A stretch of 64,000 nt of DNA, taken from NCBI GenBank assembly GCA_944989445.1, contig CALYLW010000424.1, positions 204,001-268,000 of the forward strand, read 5' to 3'. The notes below the pieces were generated by a model that saw only the letters and a program-made list of their open reading frames with translations, was not told the origin of the DNA and searched no databases. This document shows positions 7,393 to 53,860 of the stretch, piece by piece. Origin of the DNA: Ampullaceana balthica (taxonomy: Eukaryota; Mollusca; Gastropoda; Lymnaeidae). A program made the position numbers and the translations under genes. The first letter of the stretch is position 1; the number at the start of each line of letters is the position of its first letter.

Positions 7393-9763
7393 TCTATACT
7401 AATAAAAGCCTAAGCCGTGACTGACTCACTCACTGACTGACTCATCACGAATTCTCCAACGTCCCGTGTAGGTAGAAACATAAAACTTTGGGAAGTTGTT
7501 GAGTAACCTATCGCGACGATAATTGGAGTAAAATAATTTTAAAATTTACACTCATGGGGGCCGAGGGCCCAAAATGTTTTTTTTTCTTATATGGAGTGTA
7601 TAAAATATGAAAATCCCTAATTCTCCTATTTCCCGAGTAGGCAGAAGCATGAAACTCTGGAAAGTTGTTAAGTACAATCCCGCGATGGTAACAGGCGAAA
7701 AAATATATAAATTATCACTTCCTGGAGGCCAAGGGCCAAAATTAAGTTTTTTTCTTATATGAGCTATATACAAACTGAAAATCACTAATTCTCCATTTCC
7801 TGTGTAGATAGAAGCATGAAACTTTGGGTAGTTGTTAAATACACTTCTGAGATGTTAACAGGCGAAAACAATATTTGAAATATCACTTGCTTGGGGCCGG
7901 GGGCCCAAATGTATTTTTTTCTAATATTATAAACTGACTCATCACTAATTCTCCAGGTTCCCATGTAGATAGAAGCATGAAACCTTGGGAATTTGTTAAA
8001 TAGCCTCTCCCGAAGATAATTGTCGTAAAATAATATTAAAATTCACACTCATGCGAGCCGGGGGCCCTAAAAAAATTTTGTTCTTACCTGGGCTTTATGA
8101 AAATTAAAATTCACTAATTCTCCTATTTCCCGAGTAGGTAGAAGAATGAAACTTTGGAAAGTTGTTGAGTACGATTCCGCGATGGTAAGAGGCAAAAATA
8201 TATTTAAAGTATCACATACTGGGGGCCGGGGGCCCAAATGTAGTTTTTTCCTTATATGAACTTTATAAAATATAAAAATCCCTAATCCTCATAATTCCCG
8301 TGTAGGTAGAAGCATGGAACTTTCGTTAGTTGTTAAGTAAAATTTTGCAATGGTAACAGTAAAAAAAAGTATTTAAATTTTCACATACTGGGAGCCGGGG
8401 GCCCAAACATAGTTTGATTCTTATATAAAAACTAACTCATCACTAATTCTCCAACTTCCCGTGTAGGAAGAAGAATGAAACTTTGGGAAGTTGTTGAGTA
8501 CACATCCGCAATGGTACAGGCGTAAAAGAATTTTTAAATTCAAACTCATGGGGGCCGGGGGCCAAAAAAAAGTTTTCCCAGTAATATGGGCTATATAAAA
8601 ATTAAAAATCCCTCATCCTCAAATTTCTCGAGAAGGTAGAAGCTTTAAACTTTGGGTAGTTGTTAAGTAACATTCCGCGATGGTAACAGGTACAAAAAAG
8701 TATATAAATTATCATTTACTGGGGGCCGGGGGCAAAAACATTTTTTCTTATATTTAAAACTGACTCATCACTAATTCTCCAATTTCCCGTGATGGTAGAA
8801 GCATGAAACTCAGGGAACTCACTTAGTACACACTTATGACGATAACTGGTGATAAAGAATTAAACAATTTTCATTCATGGTGGCCGGGGCCCATAACCGA
8901 TTTTTTCCTCATATGGGCTATATAAAACTGAATCAACACTAATTCCTCATCTTCCCGTGTAGGTAGAAGCATGAAAGTTTGGAAAGTTTTTGAGTACTCT
9001 CCCGCTATGGTAACAGTCGAACAAAAATATAAAATTATCACTTAAAGGGGGGGGCCTGGGGCCCAAATGTAGTTTTTTCTCTTAAATGAGCTATATAAAA
9101 CAGGCTAATCATTAAATCTCCACTTTCCCGTGAAGGTAGCAGCATGAAACTTTGGGATTTTTTTAGTACCCTCCCAAAATGGTAACTTACGAACAAATAT
9201 TTCATTTATCACTCAATAGAACGGGGGCCTGAATGTAGTGTTATTTTCTTATATACAACTGACTCATCACTATTTCTCCAACTAACCGTGTAAGTAGAAG
9301 CCTGAAACTTTGGCATGTTTTTAGTTCCCTCCCGCGATAGTAGCAGGCGTAAAAATTATAAAAGTATCACTCTCTAGGGGGCCGGGGGCCCAAATGAAGG
9401 TTTTTTTCCTTATATGAGCTATATAAAACAGACTCATAGTTAAATATCCAACTTCCCGTGTACGTAGGAGCATGAAACTTTAAGAAGTTTTTGAGTATCC
9501 TCCTGCAATGGTAACATACGAAAAGAAAATTTTAATTATCGGCTCGATAGGATCACGGGAAGTGTGTCATTTTTTACTTTTCAATTTTGTTTTTATGCCG
9601 GACCACGACAGACAGACAGACAGACAAAACGATGAGATAAATATATGTAGTATATCCATCATGATCCAGATTGAAATCAATTGGTGTTTTGAATTTGTGT
9701 TATGCGGGTTCTCAACGGTAGCTGAAATCCTAATTTCCGCAGCACATGTGGGTATTTTGCTAG
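7393..9763 (+). mobile_element. Helitron/Helentron-like element filled with a satellite array
   Basis: The element starts TCTATACTAATAAAAG at 7393, directly after an A, and ends ATTTTGCTAG at 9763, directly before a T. 5'-TC, CTAG-3' and insertion between A and T are Helitron hallmarks. The head (GTGACTGACTCACTCACTGA) is followed by 13 satellite monomers, then a unique tail containing a CAGA microsatellite (9609-9628). There is no Rep/helicase gene, so it is non-autonomous. Confidence 0.75.
7440..9500. repeat. Satellite array, 13 monomers of about 166 bp
   Basis: The anchor GTAGAAGCATGAAACTTTGG (with variants) recurs near 7470, 7637, 7803, 7965, 8133, 8302, 8463, 8630, 8790, 8959, 9134, 9290 and 9460, a mean spacing of about 166 bp. 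Each monomer has CACTAATTCTCCAACTTCCC upstream, GCGATGGTAACAGGCG in the middle and a GGGGGCCGGGGGCCC near-palindrome downstream. Monomers differ by many substitutions and small indels, so the array is old or poorly homogenised. Confidence 0.93.
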
Positions 9764-11343: not shown

Positions 11344-14300
11344 TCCGTCCTCATGAGACTATGACGTTTACTCCTGCTCCTCTGCCCCCTTCGCCTTTCT
11401 CCTGGCCGTTCTTTCTTCATTCCTATCTAAGAAGGATGCTTCCACGACTTGAATACCCTCGAACACTTTTGCCCGCCAGGAGGTGCGCTCCTCGGCATTA
11501 GTCTCCAACGTTTTATGGTCTATCTGCGACAGTGTCATGTCTTTCTTACAGACGTCCTTGAAGCGCAAGCAGGTGCGATCTCTTTTCCTCATACCAGTTG
11601 CCAGCTCATCGTAAAGCAAGGCTCTTGGAATGCGCTCCGAGCTCATCATGTGGACATGACCCAACCATCGCAGGCGCCTCTCTGTCAGGACTGAGTGCAT
11701 ACTCAGCATATGGCTCCTTCTGAGAACCTCGACATTGGTGATCTTGTCCTGCCATTTGATGTGAAGAATTCTAAGCAATTATCGTAATTGGAAGCTGTTG
11801 AGCTGCTTTGTTTGCTTGGCGTAGATCGTCAAGCACTCGCTTTTATAGAGGAGTGTGCTGAGCAAGCAGGCCTGGTCCACAGTGATTTTTGTCCTATCAG
11901 TGAGCTGAGCATTGTTTCACACTCTTTGATTCAGCCTAGAAATTAAAGATGCGGCCTCGTCGATTCTGGTTTCTATTTCCTTTTCCAGGGAGAGTGTGCT
12001 TGTTATGTTACTGCCAAGGTAGTTGAAATCCTCGACGACATCCAAGGTGTTTCCCTCAATGGACATTGCTGGGAGGCAGTCAGTGCCTTGTCTCATAATG
12101 TTGTTCTTTTTTAGGCTAATCGTTAAACCAAAATCCTTGCATGCATCTGAGAACTTATTGAACAACTGTTGGAGTCCTATCTCTGTATGTGAGGTAAGGG
12201 CTGCGTCATCCGTGAAGAGCAAGTCTCTGATTAATACTGTTTCCACTTTGCTCTTCACACGGAGTCGGCTGATGTTGTATAAGTTTCCATCCTTCCTGGT
12301 ATGAATGTTCACACCCTCGGAGCAGTCCTCGAAAGCATGTCGCAATAGCATCGAGAAGAACATATTAAAGAGAGTTGGAGCCAGTACGCATCCCTGTTTG
12401 ACTCCACAACAAACTTGTGGCACCATCGAAGAGAACTGTGCTGTGCATATTGGTGTGGAAGGACTCGATAATGGTGAGAAGCCGCGGAGGAGATCCTTTT
12501 TTCCAGTCTACGTAGCAGATCCTTGTGGCTGACAAGGTCAAATGCCTTTGTTAAATCTATGAGGGCAATGAAAGGGGCTTTGTGATGATCCTGATATTTA
12601 TATTGTAGCTGACGGAGTGAGAAAATCAAGTCCATGGCTAATCGGCCAGCCTGAAAACTGAAATGTGATTCCGGGGTAGACATTTTTGTGCCAGAATTTG
12701 CAGGCGTGCAAAGCTCTTTCACACAATATTCAGTAAGAAGATGCCACGTTAGTTATTGCAATCGCAGCGATCACCTTTGCTTTTGTAAAGCGTGAATATT
12801 TTGGCGTCTTTGATCATCTCACCTGGCTTTGACTTAAATGGAGCTGAAATTGTGGTTCCATTGGCCTTTTTAACACTTTCGTACATTTTTTTTATATCTC
12901 CTTGATCGGCAGAAGATTGAGTGCTTTTACCCCATAAGTTTTGGCGCAAAAACGTGCAGTCTTCCAGGCTGTTCTGGCATTTCTGAAACATTGCAGTGTG
13001 TCAGGTCATGGGAAGCCTTGTAGACCAATAGGGCTTTTCTCTTGGTCTCCGTCGCGGGCTTCATTGTAACCCAGTGGGTCTCAAACCAATCTGCATTTTT
13101 TCTTTCCTTCCTCCCGAGTACGGCAGGAGAGGTGTTGTAAATAATGTCTCGAAGATAGAGCCATGTCGCATCAATTCGTTCTGTCACTATAGCATCATGA
13201 AGATTGGGGATTTCTTTCTGCAAGGTATTGGCCTTAAGATCTGTCTCAAGCCTGGTGTTAAGCTGATCCGTGATCTCAGAGCAGTTGATATGTTACCTGT
13301 TAATTTGAGGTTTACCCTTGCTCTTAGAGTAACACAATTTCTTTGGTATTAATTTAATTCTACTTGCGACCAGAGAGTGGTCTGTGTCACAGTCCACACT
13401 GTGGTAACTGGGTGTTTGGAGCACACTGGCCAGTTCAGAGAGCCTAGTGAGAACTAGATCAAGCTGGGGCCAGTGCTTGGAGCGAGGATGTCTCCATGAC
13501 ATTTTGTGGGATGTTCTTGCATTTGAAGAATGTGTTAGTTACACACCGATTGTGAGCACTGCATAGCTTGAGCAGTCGCTGGCCGTTGTCATTCATTTTA
13601 ACAATGCTGTGTAAGCCAATGTAGGTAGACCAGGCTTTGTGATCCGCGCCTACCCAGGAGGTATGACTCTCATGTGTGTGTATATTTGCTACTGCGGAGT
13701 CTAGAGCCTCTTAGAGGTTGTCTTTTAACTCAAAGTGGAGAGTTGGTGCATACAGGCTAAGGATATGAGCTGCGCCCGATTATGTTGAAAGTTTAATGCC
13801 GATTATCCTCTCATTGACATGTGCCGCCAGTTCAACATATGACATAAAACGTTTTTTATAGCAAAACCAACGCCATGCTACCTTGATCTATCTTATGTTA
13901 GTCATTGCCAGACAAAGGTGTAGTTGGCCTCAACAACTTTGCCCTTGTCAGCCAGCCGTGTCTCCTGTAGGCATGCAATGTCGATGCTGAAACGAGAAAA
14001 TTTCCTGTCAATGATCTCTGTCTTCCTCAACTCTTCTGCACATCATGGTCAGAGTCAAAACATGTGTACAGAGTTCGCCGAACATAGTGCTGGTAACTTC
14101 TTTCTTATTATTTTTCCATTGGTGTTTGGGTTTTGGCTCGCTTGTTGAGTTGATCACTCTGATCCTCATGCACCCAATGGGGCAAGCGAGCCATCGCGGA
14201 ACATCACCTTACTGGCTGGGGGCTGCCCAGCTTAAGGCGGATGGTAGATGCTCAATGAAACATGGCGATCTGTCCCACCGTCTGGAACGACCACTGGTGC

Positions 14301-21541: not shown

Positions 21542-22480
21542 GTTTTAATTAAAATAAGCTCTTTCTAATAATACGAAAGAACTGAAATTACCATTATAAT
21601 TAGCAGTCTTAGTGTTTATCAGTAACAGATTGCTGGCATAAAACTACTCCGTCATATTACCGCCAGTCCCAGTCAAAATTATTCCTGTAACGTGGAAACA
21701 TTGCTTTCACTTTATATGTTAAAGATTGTTTGATATTCCAAGAAATTTTTTTCTCTGTAAAGATTTGCTATTATTTTCCATCATGTTTTCAAAATGATTA
21801 AGTAGAGCTGATATAAAACTCGACTAGAAAAAGAATAGAAGTTGCGGTCATTAAGGAAAAGCAAATTAAAAATAAACACATTTTTTAAAAAAGGACACTC
21901 AAAGCATATTATTTATATAGTTTATTATAATTGGTTTCCCATCTATGCAACTCGCATTAAGACGCAAATAGAGACTTTTATAAATATTTTCTATTTTCTA
22001 TTATTTTTAAAAATTGTTTTCCTCTTTGGTTTATCTTTTTTTTGGCAATTAAACATTTTCCCAATTTCTATTCTAACACATAGTGGTGTTTCTTGACTTT
22101 TGGTAATTCTTTGTTTGTTAGCCAACCAGTCTTCATAAACTTTGCAGGAAAGGCGATATTTTGCTCTGAAATGAAAATAAAAAATAATAAATCATTTTAA
22201 TACTGGCTATTTGTTATTATTTTTTTTTAAACAAAAACTTTTGTTTGTAGCAAGATTGATTTTCAGCAAAGAATATTAGTATTGTAGAGAAACTATCCTC
22301 GTATGTGACTAAACTCTCTGCATTGACTCAATTCTTCTTAATTACTCGTCACACTTGTCTTCTCATAATCAAACACCAAACTCCAAGACTGCATGAACAC
22401 TGAACACTTATGATTACTTTATTGCTTCACTCATTGACTACAACATACACTGTAATCTAACTTCACATTTGTAAAATTAA
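21542..22480. other. AT-rich gap
   Basis: No gene, terminal repeat or RNA gene is recognised. One AT-rich frame (21842-22096, +) has hydrophobic stretches and looks like chance. Confidence 0.4.
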
Positions 22481-27014: not shown

Positions 27015-28854
27015 GTCACATATATACCTTCTGGTGACTCTCTTACTTTTTTGAGTGCATGTAAACGTTGGAACTTTTTTCTTCACTTTTACGATCCGGA
27101 AAGCTGTAAACGTCTTAAATACTTTTTTGTAGTTATTGAAACCTTCAAAAAATGAGTTAAGCATTGTATTTGATTGATTAAAAACATCAACATTGTCAGT
27201 TTACACTTTGCTGGGAACTGGTACAAGTTCCAAGACGTCATCACCCCCTCAAGTCTTTAAAAAAAAAGGGCACTGATCGTATACCGTTTAATCTTCGTTG
27301 TTTTCCTGGGGTTCAGGTGTAACAGGCCAGATTAAACCCCCGACCAGAATATACCCGGGTATAAACTGGCCTAGGCCAGAATATACCCCGGGGGTTAAAT
27401 TGGCCTAGGCCAGATTATACCCCTCCAGGCCAGAATATACCCCTTTGACAACATGAGGATATATAGTAAAAAATGACTGAATGACTATTTAGACATTCTA
27501 TTGGAGTTTTAGCTTTGTCATAGAGGTTAAACTTATTTCTTAAGTAGGAAAGATGTTTTATTAACAATAAAAAAAAACAATTTCTTTTATTACGATGTCT
27601 AAAGTTGAATTATTCAAACAATAGATGAATTTATTATTTTAAAAAAAAAGTAATTTAAGCGCGATAGGGACTATAGTTGTAGCTTTTCAAACACTTGCGA
27701 ATATTTTTTTCGTGTACCTCGCTTATTAATCCAATCATTGTTTAATTATTTTGAGTATGGCAATAAAGATTTTTTTAAAGTATTGAATTAAATTATGCAT
27801 GAATGTTTTTTCATGGCATACATTTTAAATGTTACTGGCAACCAAGGTTTAGAGCTATCTTCATTTTATTTTTGAAATAAACATATCATGGCACTTTTCC
27901 TTTTTAAAAAAATCTATCTGAATACACACTGATCTGCAAAATAATTAAAAGAATGGGCCGAATAAAGTGTGGGAAACATCGTTTGACTTCACCCCATGTT
28001 GCTTGTCGTATTTCCGAACCTTTATCTGTAGCTCGGTTTGACATTGCGGCGTCTTAAGACATTCAAAAGAAACCTTTGTTCCAGTAGCGCAAATTATTGT
28101 TATTTTTTAAATCAGCGTAATTCAGTTACCTGTGTTACCCTTAAAACAGTACGGTCATCCTTATGGATTTCGCCAAAGTTGGATTGTCCACTTTCCATGC
28201 ATTTATCTATTGTAATGAAGCACGGATTGCGTTCCGTTTTATCTGTATTCAAAAGAACCTCTGATCTCGTCGCCCACTATTATTATATTTTAAACCAGCC
28301 TAATTTATTTTGAAAGCCGTAAATATAAATCATGCAACCCTGATGGATTGGTCCCTACCTCGTGGTAGAATCATTAAACAAGAGAAGAGTTTAGCTAAAA
28401 AATATATCGACTGACAAAATACTAGGAAACACCGACAATGTCAGTAACGTAAAAGTTTACAGCAATTAACAGGTTTCTTCACCCAATCAGTTCCCCGATG
28501 ACTCTGTTAAAGGTAATGTCAATTGGAGCATACAACAAAAGGAACAAGAAAGCACAGGTGAATAAACAGATATCATCGTAAATACAACCTGTCTCAAAAC
28601 AAAAGCAGATCAGGACTTTTAAGCCACTAACAATTTCAAGAAGAAAGCGTCTTAGCACAACTCTTGGCCTTACTTTAGACAAGTTTTCATATTATGGCCG
28701 CACTCGAGATCTTAAAAAACCAAGGTGTACATATTAAAAGGGGGAGGGAAGGTACCTTCAGGGCCATACGTCCATAAGCTACATTCTGACAGGAACAGAG
28801 GACAACCATATCCTCCTTAGCGATAAAGTAATTCAACACATGAACACTGGCAAT

Positions 28855-29190
28855 ACATAACATACAACCACATAATAACTACATAACTACATAACAACTA
28901 CATAGCTACATAACAACTACATAACTACATAAAAACCACATAACAACTACATAACTACATAACAACTACATGACAACTACATAACTACTACATAACAACT
29001 ACATAATAACTACATAACAACTACATAACAACTACACAACTACATAACAACATAACTACTACATAACTACATAAATAATACATAACTACTACATAACTAC
29101 ATAACTACTACATAGCTACATAACTACTACATAACTACATAACTACTACATAACTACATAACAAATACACAACTAGATAACAACTACATA
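28855..29190. repeat. ACTACATAAC minisatellite
   Basis: About 330 bp of short units made from ACTACATAAC and ACTACATAACTACATAACA-type combinations. No coding value. Confidence 0.93.
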
Positions 29191-29199
29191 ACAACCAGG

Positions 29200-29535
29200 A
29201 AAACCAAAACTATCAACATTTGAAACCAAAACTATCAACATTTAAAACCAACATTATCAACATTTAAAACCAACTATATCAACAGTAAAAACTAACATTA
29301 TCAACATTTAAAACCAACACTATCAACATTTAAAACCAACACAATCAACATTAAAAACTAACACTATCAACATTTAAAACTAAAACTATCAACATTTAAA
29401 ACTAACACTATCAACATTTAAAACCAACACTATCAACATTTAATTTAACTCTATCAACATTTAAAACCAACTCTATCAACATTAAAAACTAGCACTATCA
29501 ACATTTGAAACTAACAATATCAACATTTGAAACGT
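29200..29535. repeat. 22-bp minisatellite, 15 units
   Basis: Units of the type ACTATCAACATTTAAAACCA occur fifteen times directly after the ACTACATAAC array, with one- or two-base changes and a few indels. Confidence 0.93.
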
Positions 29536-29812
29536 AAAATGTTTTATAAATATTATTTTATTTTAATTAAAACAATTTTGCTACTTAAGAAAAGAGTTTA
29601 ATTTCTTTGACACAGCTAAAACATGAAGAGAAAGTCTAAAAAGTCATTTATCCATTTTTTACTATATATCCCCATGTTGTCAAAGGGGTATATTCTGGCC
29701 TGAGGGGGTATATTCTGGCCTAGGCCAGTTTAACCCCGGGGGTATATTCTGGCCTAGGCCAGATTATACCCGGGTATATTCTGGTCAGGGGTTTAATCTG
29801 GCCTGTTACACC

Positions 29813-37434: not shown

Positions 37435-40400
37435 CTACTTGAAAGTAAAATTCAGAAGGATATAATATAATGGCTTTATATAATAATCATACTTTTCCTT
37501 CTCCCGTTTCTTCAAATTTTTTAGGTTAAGGACAGTTTTTCTAAATGAACTCCACATAGTTATACAACGGCCTTGATCTTTTGGTTGCACAGGAACACTC
37601 ATAGCATTAACTACAGCAACACAATTATCGCAAGCATGGACTTTTATCTTTTTAGGCCCATTCAACTTTTGTGCAGGTTTGAGGCTTTTTCTTTTCCTAG
37701 ATTCTACATTCGGTATGTTGTTAGAAGACTCTGATGTTGTGTCAGAAGATGCTGAAGGCACTGGGTGCTAGGATGGAGAATATCTGAAGTTACAATTTCT
37801 ATTTGTATATAAAATAGAATAAGCTGAAACTAAGGGCAAATATGTTAAACTTTAACAATCAAGATGTATACACCATGATGATCCAATTAAACACAGAAAT
37901 GTCGTAAAATTAGATTGAATATTTTTTAAAAGCAATTTCATTTAAATAAAACTTTGTATACATAAAGTAAGTTACATGTTGTACTTACATTCCCATTAGT
38001 CATTCCATATTTGGCAGATACTTCATCTGTAAAGGAAAAAAAATATCTACACATGTGTTGATGGACAAAGGAGTAGCTAAGGGGATGCAGCTATACCTGG
38101 TGAAACCATTCAACGTGGTGAAACTATTAAGGTGATGAAACCAAAGTGAAAAAAGCACGTTTACAGAGCACACACTAATTTGTCAGGAATTTCATACGCG
38201 GTTGTCCGATCACATTACATTTTGTACTGTTTTAACCAATCCCAATGTGTGCGTAATTAAATTTTTAAATGTTGAAGTTTGATGCGTAGAGAATGAAATG
38301 ATCCCTTATGATATTGATCAGAAAAAGCATAATTTATTTATGAATAAACAACGATTGCAGTAATTTGTCATTTCTCTTAGTGACGGGACTAGATTTTTAT
38401 CTAAATTCTTTGTAATCAACTCTCCACTGAAATAAATATGATGTAGTCTGGCAATTTCAGTAGGAATTTGGTTAAAACATACCACATAACTTGATATCAA
38501 TGTATGGTTATTTCATAAGTTTAATATTTTTTTTTAAATTTTAAATACTAGGCCAAATGCGAAATTCAAAAGGGGATACACCAGCTAATATGCAATGATT
38601 CTAAAAGATGATGCTAAACGGACAGAAGTAATGTGGCCTGCGCTTCAATACAGTGTTGGTGGTGAGCATGGAACAAGACAGGGAAGGCATGTTTGACCAC
38701 ATATATTAATTTGACCACATTTTTTAAAGTCTAAAATGAGACTTCCTTGGGGCACACTTTATCGAGCATCAGCGATGTGCAGCAAAAATGGAGACTAGAT
38801 GGAGAGATGTTAATGATGAAGAAGATCTGTACTGATGAACTGTGAGCAAATCACTGTATCTCAGGGGTTGGCAATTGTTTTGGCTTGGAGGCCACTTGGT
38901 GGTAGAGGATTTTAGTGGAGGCCCGCACCTTGTAAAACGAATTTGTTCGTTAGTAAACATTTTAGTTGAGAAAATTGTTATGTTTTAGTTTGTGGTGTAG
39001 TTTGAGAGTGTACTCATTAAATCCGGCAATCATTTCATGCTAAACAAATTGCTTTCTTGCCTGCATTACCAAAGAAATATTCTTGTGTCCATTCTTTACT
39101 AAGCACACAGGATTCATCACCAATTTTACACTTTTTTGGAGAGTTCATGGCCCCAACAAATTTGGGAAATTAGTGTACTGTTACAAAGACACAATATAAA
39201 TAAAAATAACAAACCGGAAACTGCATATTTACACTGCCTGTTCACGTGCAATGACATTATTGACATAGCTGCTTTCATGGAAAAACAGAAGGTGAACTTT
39301 CGGTCACAGACATATAGCGATCTCTGTTCAAGGAGTGTTTTTTGAACGTCTGGGGTGCCACAAGAATCTCTGTGGAGGGCGGCATATGGCCCACACTTTG
39401 TCCATCTCTGGTGTATCCTGCATCAAGGTTTGTAGTGTGGTAATCCTCCTCAACATGGGAGGTATAATTAGTAATGTAACAAAACCTATCAAAGGTATAA
39501 ATCAACGCCATTTTAATTATTTTTTGCAGGAGTTTGATAGCACGTTTTAGTTTTATCATACACCCAGGCGATGGTGAAATCTGAGGAAAGCTCACAGATC
39601 ATTTTCAAGCTAATCAAGTACATGTGTCAATTCATTGAAACTTTAATAGCAAATATAAAGACTATATAACTTTTCGGAATAAAAAGATAACATGTTAGTA
39701 GGCTATTCTGTCGGACATTACCACTTAAAACTTCAGCTCAATAGAGTGTCCCACTTGATAATTGATATGCATAATGCCAGGAAGAGACTACAAATGAAGC
39801 TGCTTTTTTTGGAAGACACAAATACACCAAAGCAAAGTGACTCATTTTTTTGTTGTCATGCAATGTTAAACCAAGTAAAAGCTATGTTTCCCAATGCAAA
39901 CTTTGAAAAAGTTAGAATACTTCACTTCGAGTCCGCACTGAGATTTAGTGTTAGAAATAAAAATAAAAAACAGTTGAAATGTTTTGTATACCTTTGGAAA
40001 CTGCACTTGTAAATTTTCATATGAATTTAATTACTAATAGATCTGCAGTATGTTGAGACACTAGAGTCTAGAGGCTTAGTACAACCCAGTGGGACCTGCA
40101 CAGATAACTAAAGATTTCTTTTTCATAAGAGATTCCCCAGCTTTATCAGCAATTTCAATTACATCAAACAATGTTTATATTTTGATGGAAAATGTGTTTT
40201 TAAAAAGTAAGATTTGCAAAACATAACTCAGGAGTCTTCTCACATGCAGTCTATCATGAGAATATCAATGACAAAGAAGATAATGTCATACGCATTCAAA
40301 CATATAGCCATTGAAAAATGACAATCATCTAGTTCTGACAAACTGGCATATGAGCAAAAATGAGTTTTCCAATGACTTTTTAACATAAAAACTTTTTATG

Positions 40401-43400
40401 CATAGTTTTAAGTTGAAGTTTAAATACAATGTTTTATTTTCCACATATTGAATTTGTATCTTGTTCGCCCCTCAGCCATGGGTATGATTTGAGTTTTATC
40501 CCGCTTAATGATTGAATTTGACACCCCTGCTTTATGTGATCCTCTTGAAAATGTGTGCAAAAGGTCATTTACAAGCTGTCTTTGATTTCACATTTATTTT
40601 CCATATTTATACATGGGCTGATCTTTATGAGAAAATAAATTAATATTACATAGCAGAATATAACATTGATAACATCACAAGTTTACTGCACTGGGTGACA
40701 CCAACACAAGCTACACCACTATGTTAAAGTATTTACTAATTTTGATAGGTTTAATAAAAGTTATTCTAAATAGTAATAAACATTATTTGGTAAATAATAC
40801 CTTTCAAATGTCAATGAATCAATTAAATAAATTATCATACACATAGAATTCATTTAAAAAAGAAAATATTTATAATTTACTATATAATTATGTTTGTTCA
40901 GCTAATTATAATTTTAATGAAGATTATAACGAATTAAAAAATACAAATTATTTAAGTTAAACATAAAAGAACATAATATCCATGTTTCATTTTGTTCTGA
41001 TTATTTATTTAGATTGCAAATTATCTTTTTCTTATTGCAATCTCATATCATGACTTTATCATTCCTTGATGTTGTCTCAAATACTTAATATTATCTAGAA
41101 ATTGAGATACATTTCCATTGTTTTTCATTTTTAAAGACATAATTTACAAAAATACATGCAATAAAGATAAAGAATTACAAAATACCTTTTATTTTGTTCA
41201 GCTCAATTACCAAAGATTCCTGGCAAAGATCAGGATTCGACAGCACTTGTATTATAATTTCAAACCAGTCTGGCTTTAACTGTAAGGCATTAAGAATTTC
41301 ATCATTGCCAAGGGTAGGAAACTTAGTCCCAGAACTTGACTTTTTATGTAGTTTTGCCTGTACATCGTAAAATAATTGCACAAATCCCACATTAATTATA
41401 AACATTGTAATTTAAACTATTTGCTTGATAATCATTTCTTATAAAAGAGATATCTATAACATTAGCTATTAGCAGGAAAGGTAAAAAAGTTGCAAGCATC
41501 TCAACAGTAAATTATTAGGTTCATAATGTGACTTTGCATAGATTAAGATACTATTATTCACATAAAATTGTTTCATACAGTATGTATATGGTAAATAAGA
41601 ACATTAAATTGCCTAAACACAGTTAATCAGTATACATGCAACTTATTGGAGCCCTTAATTAAGGTGACCAGATTTTTCGACCTCAGGTTTCTGGAGCAAA
41701 AATTCAGGACGTCTGGTCACTTTAGCGGGACATGAAGTTTGAAATCAGGATGTCTGGTCACCTTACGTATCGGGATCACCGACAAGCCACGGGAAAGCGG
41801 AATCAAGGAGTAAAATGTAAATAACTACAGAAATTGACGCACCAATCGGCTTAGCTAATAATAAAGCAATTTAAATGTATTAAAAAATCACTGTTTTGAA
41901 TATATTATTAAATTTAAGAAAATATTAATTCATTCTTACCCAAAATCACAATAAAACCAATTGTATTTATTTTATCAAATAAAGTATTGATTAGATCAAC
42001 TCTCCTCAATCGCAAATGGCGTTATTTTTGGTTACAAAATAACTCGTCAGTCTGTGAGGTGTTTAAAATGTTTTCGTAATCTCAGAATGGATTAACATTT
42101 AATTCTTTACGTGTTTCATTTATGTGTTAAAAATATAATTTATAAGGAAATAACATTTTTTTTTAATGAAAATTTTTTTTAATGATATTTCAGCGAGGCC
42201 ACGGCTAGAAATCGAGTTCATTGAAGTGTAAAGTCTCTTTCACAGAAAAAGCGGGCCAAACGGGTGTCCTGCCCGTACAAGTGAGGGACCGGGGGACATG
42301 AAGTCTGAAATCAAGACTGTCCCGCCTAAATCAGGACGTCTGGTCATACTTACCTTAATGAATACGTATGAATAGACATAGGGAAAGGAAATTTCATTTA
42401 TACTTGAGAGAAATTCTGAACTGGCCTTCCAGACCCTGACGAAAAATTAAGCAGCATATGCCTTGAGCCAAACAAGAAATCAAGCCTCAATAAGCGTTTC
42501 TGCCATATTTTGAAATTTCTTAATATATTATGAAAGCGAATGTTGCTCTTTTGGGAATCAAAATTGTCTCCTTCTTAAGGATAGTTCCAAAACTCACCAA
42601 ATGACTTGGTAACTTGGTACAAAACATGAAAATGACGATTTTTTTAAAATGCATAAGCAGACTCTTGACTTCGGCCAGAACTCACCTTTCTCCAATTAAT
42701 AGGGGACCTTCTTAATCATACATAGTTTAAGGTTAAATGTATATGATTATACTTATACAGTCAAACCCACTTAACTCGAGCCCGGTTAACTCGCCAACCC
42801 TATTAAGTCGACGATTGTTATTGGGACCGCCAAATTCTCTCTTTGTCTTAGCATTTTCTCATTGGTTAATTCGATTTTTTTAAGCCGCCGAAACCTAATA
42901 CCTCGAGCACAGAAGAGGGCCAAATTTGAAACTTAACGTTGGTTAACTCGATCCCCGTCTGTTGGCCTAAAGACGCACTCTGGCATTTTTAGTTCAAAAT
43001 AGTGTCGACATCTTGCTTTCCTCGAGACTTCCAGCTATTGTGTGATTCTACGAGATTTCAATAAAAATTACCGGATGTTTTTACTTGTTTCAATTCGTGT
43101 GTGAATTAGTTTGACGTGTCTCCGTGGAGTATGTATTCACCCGAGGTGCTCGAAAATCACGTTAGCTGTCTTTAAACGTCATTATTTCGCAGTGCATGTT
43201 ATATTATTATTAAACTTAATTCATTATCTGATGCATTAATCATTTTATTTTTTAAGATAAACGAATATCTTTAGAAAAGAAAATAAAGGTTTGTATCGAG
43301 AATCGACGGTGGTTTTTATTTAATTATATAAACAATTATTATTCTTTTAAAAATTTGTTGTTGCTTTGTTACCATTAAGATACGGGACTAACACGCGCGT

Positions 43401-44505
43401 GACGATGAAATCAAATCATTTTCTTAATTTTCCAGCATATATATATAATATACACGTCATCACTGTTGTCGGTCGAATTCTGAATTATTATTTTTTTTAA
43501 TTCGCTTAGTTGCCGAGGTCTAACAAACAGCGTGCTGTGATCAACGGTCAAGGCCACAATAGTTACTATTCATATTACAAGTTTGATTGACTGAGGAATT
43601 TCGAGTGCGGTCTCGTAGTGACAGATATCCTGCATGTCAAAAGCATTAAACTTAAAATTACCATATTGATATGTTTATTTTTTTTTAATGTGGTGATTCG
43701 ACGGGCATTGCAAACACGAGCGGGGGTGACATGCCATGCCACACGCGCCATGGGGCGAGGCGAGGCGAAAAATTTGACCTTAATGTTAACGCATGCGCAG
43801 ACAATTATAAACTGGTAACTTTTTTATTAATTAAATGGAATCGAAACATGACCACAGAGACGTAATCAAAGTCATTTACTTCGGCATAAAAAAATACGTA
43901 TACAAAAATTCCCGACTAGACATAACTTTTCCCGACTTTCAAGACAGAGAAATTTTTTTAAAGAATTCCCGACTTTTTCCCGACTGAGGTTATATTTAAA
44001 CGGTCCTTAAAAACAAACGGTCTTAACAACCTTAGGAAAGAGTGAAGAAATATTAGGGTCCCAATATTCTGATACGATTCAGATTAATCGTTCAATCACT
44101 AATTGACGCACATCATGTACATAAAGAAATTTCAAGCACATGTTAATATTTTGCCGCAATATTGGTTTTCGTTTAACTCGATCATCGGTTATCTCGACGC
44201 CATTTTTCATACCCCAACGCCGTCGACTTAAACGGGTTCGACTGTACTATATAAATTTAACTCTTTTTGAAATAACATTATGATAATTATGAGATTAAAA
44301 TGGTAATTTGGTTGTGATGCATATTTAATTATATTTGTATTACTAATAGTATTACCAAAATTTTAACCGACAGCACTGGTGGATGCAACGTTCGGAGATG
44401 GTCTACAAACTCTGATGCATAGTTCCTCGCCTTAAATACATGCCCAACTTTTTGAAAAAGCTCCTCATTAAATTCATCTTTTAAACTGCGTTTACGCTTG
44501 GGCAT
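37435..44505 (-). CDS. Putative four-exon gene with a 38-nt micro-exon; nuclear-type basic protein
   Basis: Four minus-strand exons splice into one open frame of about 226 codons. Exon 1: 44505-44368 (or to 44356; both donors phase 0), starting with ATG at MPKRKRSLKDEFNEELFQKV. Exon 2: 41357-41186, acceptor GATGTACAG, donor AAAG|GTATTT. Exon 3: 38026-37989, 38 nt, acceptor TTTCCTTTACAG, donor GTAAGT. Exon 4: 37767-37435, acceptor CCATCCTAG, ending in TAG. Phases agree at every junction; exon 2's last G plus exon 3 encodes DEVSAKYGMTNGN. The product has PKRKR at the N-terminus, a Ser/Thr-rich stretch, then a bipartite basic cluster (RKRKSLKPAQKLNGPKKIKV), followed by CDNC, suggesting a nuclear protein. 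The two long introns (about 3.0 and 3.2 kb) contain TE copies. I do not recognise the family; it may be a lineage gene or a gene of an unknown element. Confidence 0.62.
38862..39410. mobile_element. hAT-like non-autonomous element in intron 2
   Basis: The left end CAGGGGTTGGCAATTGTTTT then GGCTTGGAGGCCAC and the right end GGCCCACACTTTGTCCATCT then CTG both follow the hAT CAGGGGTGGGCAAAC / CAGAGGTGGACAAAG patterns. The flanks CTGTATCT (38854-38861) and GTGTATCC (39411-39418) agree at six of eight bases. Confidence 0.62.
39690..40529. mobile_element. Decayed hAT fragment with right end
   Basis: The right end GAATTTGACACCCCTG (40514-40529) is the complement of the hAT terminus CAGGGGTGTCAAATTC. 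A plus-strand frame (39692-40012) with MFPNANFEKVRILHFESALR is reminiscent of hAT transposase but too short to be sure. The left end is not seen. Confidence 0.45.
41663..42355. mobile_element. MITE with GGTGACCAGA ends, in intron 1
   Basis: The left end AAGGTGACCAGATTTTTCGA, internal GGACGTCTGGTCACTTTAGC and GGATGTCTGGTCACCTTACG, and the right end CAGGACGTCTGGTCATACTT form repeated inverted terminal motifs. A shorter copy lies at 58345-58804 with the same order of blocks, including GGCTTAGCTAATAATAAAG. Confidence 0.82.
42758..44244. mobile_element. pogo/Tigger-like element without transposase, in intron 1
   Basis: It starts CAGTCAAACCCACTTAACTC (42758) and ends GACTTAAACGGGTTCGACTG (44244), with TA on both sides (42756-42757 and 44245-44246). 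GTTAACTCG-type motifs repeat near both ends. The core is AT-rich with a GC-rich patch (43690-43770) and no recognised gene. The right end lies 112-124 bp from exon 1 of the minus-strand gene, depending on the donor used. Confidence 0.82.
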
Positions 44506-51164: not shown

Positions 51165-51440
51165 CATTTTAGGTTTAGTGATATGTTTAAGGTTTTGGGT
51201 TAGGTTTAGTGATAGGTTTTAGTGTTTGGGTTAGGTTTAGTGATAGGTTTTAGGGTATGGGTTAGGTTTAGTGATAGGTTTTAGGGTTTTAGTTAGGTTT
51301 AGTGATAGGTAAAATAGGTTTTATGGTTTGGGTTAGGTTTAGTGATGGGTTTTAGGGTTTGGGTTATGTTTAGTGATATGTTTTAGGGTTTGGGTTAGGT
51401 TTAGTGATAGGTTTTAGTTTTAGTGTTAGTTAGGCATAGG
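51165..51440. repeat. TTAGG-like minisatellite, 8 units of about 31 bp
   Basis: Units of the type TTTAGTGATAGGTTTTAGGG followed by TTTGGGTTAGG. The TTAGGG-like words are part of a longer unit, so this is not telomeric repeat. Confidence 0.9.
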
Positions 51441-52235: not shown

Positions 52236-53860
52236 GTGCTCCAGGATTGGAAATTAGCTAACGTAACTCCACTCTTTAAGAAAGGGGGTAAATCAGACCC
52301 TGGTAATTACAGACCTGTATCACTTACTAGTATCACCTGTAAATTACTAGAACACATAATATATAGTAGAATAGTTAACCACCTTGACAAATATAATGCC
52401 CTGTGCCCATATCAACACGGCTTTAGAAAAAATAGATCATGTGAAACACAATTAATAGGTTTAATACTTCAATAAATAATAGACGAACTATCAAAAGGCT
52501 TAGACAATAATGATCAAATAGATACAATATTACTAGACTTCTCAAAAGCATTTGACAAAGTTCACCACCTTAGTTTACTTAAAAAACTTAACTACTTTGG
52601 AATCTCAAATGCCTTACATCACTGGATCCAAGACTTCCTTTTGGGCAGGGAGCAAACTGTAATAATTAATGGATCTAAATCTGCACCAATAAAGGTCAAT
52701 TCAGGAGTTCCACAAGGAACTGTGCTAGGTCCCTTACTCTTTTTAATATATATAAGTGATTTACCAAACAACATCTCAACAGGAACAAAAGTTAGGTTAT
52801 TTGCTGATGATTGTATAATCTATAGAACAATTAAATCAGAACAAGATAGCAAAATTTTACAAAAAGACCTAGATGAATTGATAAAATGGGAAACTAACTG
52901 GAGTATGAGTTTCCACCCAGAAAGTGTCAACTGTTAAGAGTAACAAAGAAAAAGAAACAAATAAATTCAAAATATTTCATTCATTGAAAGGAACTAAACC
53001 AAACTAAAGATGCAAAATTCTTAGGAGTCATAATAAATGAGAAATTATCATGGAATCCCCATGTCAATGAAGTTATTAAAAAATCAAACAAAACCTTAGG
53101 CTTTATAAAAATAAACTTTAACAAATGTAATAGAGATATAAAACTAAAATGCTTCCTCACTTTGGTGAGACCTGTACTAGAATATGCATCTTCTGTATGG
53201 GACACATCCACCAAAGAAAACATTGATAAACTAGAACAAATCCAAAAAAGAGCTGCCAGATTCATTACTGGAGAATATTCAAAACTGACTAGAATAACAC
53301 CATTAGGGGCCGTCCATAAATTACGTCACGCTATTTTTGACCATTTTTAACTTCACTCCTCCCCCTGTCACAAACTGTCACAAATCTCGCCCCCCCCCTT
53401 AAAGTACGTCACACTTTCCAACAAAAATGTTGTTTTTTATTAACAAAATAATTAAAATTTAATATAAAACACCGTGACGTCACACATGGCCGGACCCCCC
53501 CCTCCCCCCTGTCACAAACTGTCACACTTTCGTACACCCCCTCCCCCCCTCTGGATCGTGACGTAGTTTATGGACGGCCCCTTAGTTAAATCATTAAACC
53601 TTGAAACACTAGAGGATAGAAGAACCAAGAGTAAAGCAGTAATCATTCATGAAGCAATTAACTCTAATTTAGAAATACAACACAAAGATAACTTAATACA
53701 ACCCTCAGATAGACATAAGGATGTTTTTTTATCCTTCTTATTCCGTATGCAAGAACAAACTCATACAAATTTTCGTTCTTCCCGTCCGGAATTCGGGCGT
53801 GGAAAGGGTTGCCTGAAGAAACCAGGAGAGCCAACACTTTATCAACATTTAAAACTCTAA
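52236..53860 (+). pseudogene. LINE reverse transcriptase, broken
   Basis: Blocks: DWKLANVTPLFKKGGKSDPG then NYRPVSLTSITCKLLEHIIY (52245-52370), HGFRKNRSCETQL (52420), a stop at 52473, LLDFSKAFDKVHH (first catalytic D, 52530), SGVPQGTVLGPLLFLIYISD (52700-52760), LFADDCIIYR (F-A-D-D active site, intact, about 52800), a frameshift near 52935, then AKFLGVIINEKLSWNPHVNE, RPVLEYASSVWDTSTKENID and KRAARFITGEYS (53010-53280). After the MITE the frame resumes with VKSLNLETLEDRRTKSK and ends at 53860. It makes cDNA at the target site in live relatives; this copy cannot, because of the stop, frameshift and insertion. Confidence 0.92.
53306..53581. mobile_element. 276-bp Harbinger-like MITE with exact TTA duplication, in LINE ORF
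   Basis: The ends are GGGGCCGTCCATAAATTACG and CGTAGTTTATGGACGGCCCC. TTA lies on both sides (53303-53305 and 53582-53584). Removing the MITE and one TTA restores the LINE frame (ITPL then VKSLNLETL), so the duplication is certain. The TTA target supports PIF/Harbinger. Confidence 0.95.

Follow-up and report, generated by a model that had tools for sequence, protein, structure and literature searches.

A conserved snail gene that appears to join a MAVS-type CARD to a degenerate P2X7-type ballast domain

Kol0 Kolobok transposons are reported to encode a protein, KolX, that has the ballast fold; the same source derives P2X7 from the union of a P2X4-like gene with KolX and treats nanor as a domesticated KolX (PMC9587614). 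Further conserved domains are mostly absent from ballast proteins, the stated exceptions being fusions to TolA and THAP in Ixodes (PMC7016195), and what the ballast does in P2X7 is described as unclear (PMC9859053). On the side of innate signalling, PMC9334734 reports that MAVS and STING were not found in Aplysia, itself a heterobranch, that the RIG-I-like receptors of Aplysia and Biomphalaria lack CARDs, and that Aplysia has RIG-I/MAVS-type CARD proteins without a helicase; it asks whether heterobranchs possess either a new axis or a MAVS-like protein that has diverged strongly. Here we describe a minus-strand gene in a 64,000-nucleotide stretch of Ampullaceana balthica DNA (the window, C424:204001-268000, on contig CALYLW010000424.1) whose product strongly suggests an MDA5/MAVS-type CARD in its N-terminal half and a degenerate P2X7-type ballast in its C-terminal half.

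A first-pass annotation had proposed four exons ending at 37435, with about 226 codons and no known family. The four exons (44505-44356, 41357-41186, 38026-37989 and 37767-37435) are present on the minus strand with GT-AG introns and agreeing phases, and the joined frame has 230 codons and a stop; the 38-nt micro-exon is in frame given the single G remaining from exon 2, as had been claimed. The end of the gene had to be moved. When the unnamed Lymnaea stagnalis protein P0001 (268 residues) was compared with the window by tblastn, exon 1 (5e-10), exon 2 (1e-9) and exon 4 (2e-31) were recovered collinearly on the minus strand; the comparison also added an exon at 22167-22030 (6e-17). The similarity to Lymnaea ends at a GT donor at 37492 (GGAAAA followed by gtatgatt) whose phase suits exon 5, and joining exon 5 (22165-21991) via the acceptor at 22166 restores the phase and gives a product of 269 residues with a TAG stop. 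Because the homology stops at this GT and exon 5 joins in phase, the last 58 nt of the four-exon model (37492-37435) are, judged by sequence, intronic read-through outside the corrected coding sequence.

The corrected gene thus has five exons over about 22.5 kb. Exon 1 (150 nt, ATG at 44505) encodes the first half of the CARD-like domain and exon 2 (172 nt) the second half, including the segment NALQxKPDWFEIIIQVL; the micro-exon encodes part of the linker. Exon 4, now 37767-37493 (275 nt), carries an acidic/serine and basic linker, HACDNC and GRCITMWSSFRKTVL, the first part of the ballast-like domain, and exon 5 (175 nt including TAG) carries the end of that domain (TPLCVRIEIGKMF) and a basic tail. 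Intron 4 (37492-22166) spans 15,327 nt, and a pattern scan alone places a possible polyadenylation signal, AATAAA, at 21926-21921 on the same strand. No Rfam match was found in the window.

Lymnaea is a heterobranch gastropod, and P0001 matches the predicted protein at E 1.9e-59 with 57% identity over 87%; on this ground we take the gene to be a genuine conserved snail gene. Taken alone, an exon chain of this kind could be chance; it is the orthologue that settles the matter. The corrected 269-residue protein is identical to P0001 at 152 of 259 aligned residues (59%), distributed over exons 1 to 5 as 26/48, 29/54, 5/12, 58/91 and 34/54, so that the micro-exon is the least conserved, and all six cysteines of the C-terminal half are kept. 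The two proteins are alike in length and segment order; where exons 4 and 5 meet, P0001 carries an additional nine residues (FCKSPCTTE). P0001 and a partial Lymnaea paralogue, P0002 (191 residues), are both unnamed and without Pfam domains. A wider homologue search, which reaches only relatives sharing 5-residue words, covered 3178 candidates, of which the only two at E<=10 are Lymnaea proteins.

Residues ~12-112 are predicted to form six helices, and this region has the MAVS CARD as its best Foldseek match and MDA5 as its best match in a profile search of the PDB. The real alignment score of the N-terminal half against MAVS was reached by 0 of 2000 shuffles for the window protein, by 2 of 2000 for Lymnaea A and by 22 of 2000 for Lymnaea B. 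In the crossed control against P2X7 the scores were unremarkable (1590, 1775 and 854 of 2000 shuffles). The window protein differs from MDA5, RIG-I and MAVS, whose CARDs define the comparison (CARD_2), in having a single CARD, no helicase and no C-terminal membrane anchor. The phase-0 intron that divides its CARD-like domain lies at nearly the same place as in split CARD_2 exons of the snail itself.

Within the same genome (assembly of 1.097 Gb in 3363 contigs), PF16739 (CARD_2) gave 12 matches at E<=1, six of them above the cut-off, and five (L034, L035, L038, L039 and L042) cover the second half of the CARD_2 domain only. The exons behind these five, whose acceptors were picked by eye, all begin in phase 0, and the aligned W, or the residue standing in for it, follows after 26-29 residues; exon 2 of the window gene has the same phase at its start, with 31 residues preceding the conserved W. 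Exon 2 resembles L034, L035 and L038 (1, 2 and 0 of 2000 shuffles reach the score) and is not similar to L039 and L042 (373 and 1637 of 2000). Two of these half-domain exons lie ~18 kb apart on C46 and two ~45 kb apart on C432. Fold search, PDB profile search, shuffle controls and the split CARD exons of the same phase together strongly suggest that the N-terminal half is an MDA5/MAVS-type CARD.

A further relative in the genome is a 390-residue open frame (L029:1393-2565, in the C204:261522-262043 region), in which a CARD-like N-terminal domain is followed by zinc fingers of the double-stranded RNA-binding type. It is collinear with the N-terminal half of the window protein over ~104 residues with a score of 87, the best of 5000 shuffles reaching 57, and it matches zf-met, zf-C2H2_jaz and, weakly, CARD_2 in Pfam. 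Compared directly with human MAVS, its N-terminal domain gave a score that 1839 of 5000 shuffles reach. This open frame may possibly encode a CARD-type RNA sensor.

The C-terminal half was compared with P2X7 in the same way. Residues 157-260 align structurally with P2X7 477-587, and the scores of the three real sequences against human P2X7 are attained by 2, 12 and 2 of 2000 shuffles, with the crossed control against MAVS again unremarkable (611, 396 and 100 of 2000). All four sequences that contain exon 4 show the motif G.C[IL]T....[FL]R..VL, which was written post hoc; shuffling the window protein 200,000 times produced it once. In common with the P2X7 ballast/ZCD, nanor and KolX, the window protein has CxxC, GxCIT....FR..VL, A..xY..W and P.C....I...F in order; it differs in having no LCC pair, a His for the first Cys of CxCxxC, no P2X channel, a ballast-like domain split over two exons and a CARD at its N-terminus. 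Measured against the three cysteine clusters published for the ballast (PMC7016195), it reads HACDNC for PxWCxCx2C, keeping C..C with the first Cys replaced by His; it retains GRCIT of LCCRx3GxCITT/S and lacks LCC; and it reads TPLCVRIEIGKMF where (L/I/V)PSC(C/S)x3IRx2(F/Y)P is expected. The closest approach to the third cluster, two positions off, is IPSCVLDEIGKRFP in exon 5 of a broken paralogue described below. The channel domain and the two membrane helices of a P2X receptor were not found, as there is neither a Pfam P2X match nor a hydrophobic segment. The fold search and the crossed shuffle controls strongly suggest that this half is a degenerate P2X7-type ballast.

Neither assignment reaches its Pfam cut-off. 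The Pfam CARD_2 cut-off is 28.2 bits; P0001 scores 13.8 bits and the 269-residue protein has no match, and because this cut-off is not reached we call the domain CARD-like. The profile search that the first-pass annotation had called for gave P2RX7_C as the best Pfam match, with E 0.004 for P0001 (residues 128-258), 0.02 for the 230-residue version and 0.0091 (16.4 bits) for exon 4 alone; all fall below the cut-off (23.5 bits for the exon 4 comparison), and the corrected protein has no Pfam match. A snail CARD profile did not discriminate, and alignment-free fold prediction was poor. When a P2X7 profile was run against 906 real, reversed and shuffled sequences, Lymnaea ranked first, a shuffle second, the window protein third and P0002 ninth. 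The human P2X7 tail as query returned 27 proteins, of which about four carry an organism name, all mammals, and no invertebrate ballast protein is named among the 27. In the Ampullaceana genome the P2RX7_C profile gave no match, nor did the controls, and two matches to the P2X7 tail (E 2.6 and 3.2) were set aside as resembling reverse transcriptases by eye. The earlier "no family I know" can be replaced by CARD-like plus P2X7/KolX-ballast-like.

We read the gene as a domesticated CARD-ballast fusion, and gene, domains and a role as a soluble CARD adaptor or regulator together make up what we consider a probable account; the signalling step taken by itself, as soluble CARD adaptor or brake, is put forward more tentatively. 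No C-terminal membrane anchor of the MAVS type was found, the maximum Kyte-Doolittle value over 19 residues being 0.95 and lying within the CARD-like part, and for lack of such an anchor the protein would not be a MAVS. The proposed molecule of 269 residues would have no membrane segment; a linker, flexible and basic, would separate the CARD-like domain (~12-112) from a degenerate ballast (~155-255). The ballast probably came from a transposon, the origin also proposed for that of vertebrate P2X7, but its partner here would be a CARD and not a channel. The predicted zinc number, partners, location and immune role are these: the CARD would bind or co-polymerise with other snail CARD proteins; the ballast, whose remaining C166, C169, C188 and C241 (perhaps with H164) would suit one zinc and not two, would hold that zinc and form a docking or oligomerisation platform; and the basic clusters may direct the protein to nucleic acid or into the nucleus. 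Overall, the protein would act in innate signalling as a soluble adaptor or as a brake. The GDP-site residues are mostly lost in a hand reading of the alignment, which says nothing on nucleic-acid binding.

The best-surviving alternative, which we regard as unlikely, is a nuclear nucleic-acid-binding regulator in which the CARD is ancestral and has lost signalling, and the basic clusters and the zinc domain act, perhaps as in zebrafish nanor-like proteins. The protein contains 54 K+R against 27 D+E and several basic clusters, which the first-pass annotation had rightly noted together with the CxxC pair, both cysteines of which are kept in Lymnaea. Ballast-only proteins occur in other animals (PMC7016195), and the related CARD-like domain of L029 precedes zinc fingers of the double-stranded RNA-binding type in the same genome. 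The conservation of the CARD-like half speaks against this reading: of the 102 residues aligned in exons 1-2, 55 are the same in Lymnaea, a level like that of the remainder.

We give very little weight to a gene that ends at 37435, with exon 5 as a dead remnant or an alternative. The four-exon frame is open, the nine Lymnaea junction residues are missing in the window, and no micro-exon was found for them: intron 4 holds 162 open candidates of 18-36 nt with a best score of 9, and none was accepted because the opposite strand scored higher (16). Against this, exon 5 is intact, in phase and conserved, has a good acceptor and ends where the Lymnaea protein ends. Since P0002 and the broken paralogue likewise extend past the exon 4/5 junction, it appears that the exon 4 donor moved upstream by 27 nt in this snail lineage.

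The own-genome protein search, which scores best candidates only and so gives a lower bound on copy number, returned eight matches: four exons of the window gene, three of one paralogue and L029. The paralogue lies on the same contig ~161 kb upstream (L030:5318-8896, C424:409318-412896) and is broken, its exon 1 containing a stop and its exon 5 changing frame. Its exon 4 is nearer to P0002 than to P0001 (97 vs 50 bits). The apparent location of P0001 and P0002 on one contig points to a pair that has long been linked. A scan reaching 100 kb to each side (264,000 bases, 5,000 of them N) showed no third copy. Between the window gene and the paralogue, over 206 codons, dN is 0.47 and dS is 1.11, and pN reached pS in 0 of 1000 bootstraps; with the Lymnaea orthologue, this bears out the earlier view that the intact frame is under selection.

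These data also bear on whether the product is a Kolobok KolX-type transposon protein and not a host gene, which we find hardly credible. KolX proteins of Kol0 elements have the ballast fold, as noted above, and the surroundings are rich in repeats. The many copies expected of a Kolobok are not seen, with at least one other copy found in the assembly and exon 4 DNA single-copy, and five exons, introns of up to 15 kb and an apparent linked pair in Lymnaea are unlike a mobile element. It is just as improbable that the gene died recently and that its frame has yet to decay, for although the paralogue is broken and the exon 4 donor shifted, the five exons contain no stop or frameshift, the C-terminal cysteines are kept and dN/dS is below 1.

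The gene instead looks like another ballast capture, here joined to a CARD. As in the Ixodes TolA and THAP fusions, the ballast is C-terminal behind an unrelated domain, the partner here being CARD-like; our literature searches on CARD with ballast or P2X7-like proteins found no CARD-ballast protein described among the papers listed. The first-pass description of a gene among dead transposons holds for the setting, which fits a transposon-derived ballast, and not for the gene itself, which on the above evidence is not mobile. Neighbouring coding traces are broken, as it had said, and three of the ten open reading frames scanned in the window are reverse-transcriptase fragments.

Several repeats were recorded in the window. 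Intron 4 contains 82 inverted pairs of at least 22 nt, the longest with 260-nt arms (27316-29812, arms 88% complementary, short tandem arrays between). Intron 1 holds an apparent TA-flanked element (42755-44240) with terminal inverted repeats like TACAGTC(G/A)AACCC, seen by eye and absent as a pair from the 22-nt repeat search. RVT_1 reverse-transcriptase fragments lie at 11920-12722 and 52641-52934, on both strands, a degenerate tandem array with periods of ~168 and 328-497 at 7436-9540, and a TTAGGTTTAGTG-type minisatellite with a period of ~31 at 51169-51424.

As a fusion of CARD and ballast the protein would have a novel architecture, tying a transposon-derived module to innate signalling for a second time, and a free-standing relative of the ballast would be a simpler test object than P2X7. 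A wider scheme, which we consider distinctly improbable, is that in heterobranch snails stand-alone CARD proteins, their zinc modules exchanged, make up a substitute pathway for sensing RNA, with L029 as sensor and the CARD-ballast protein as adaptor; were it true, transposon ballast would have been recruited to immune signalling twice, in vertebrate P2X7 and here. The window gene also offers a concrete, testable candidate for the question, posed in PMC9334734, of a MAVS-like protein in heterobranchs.
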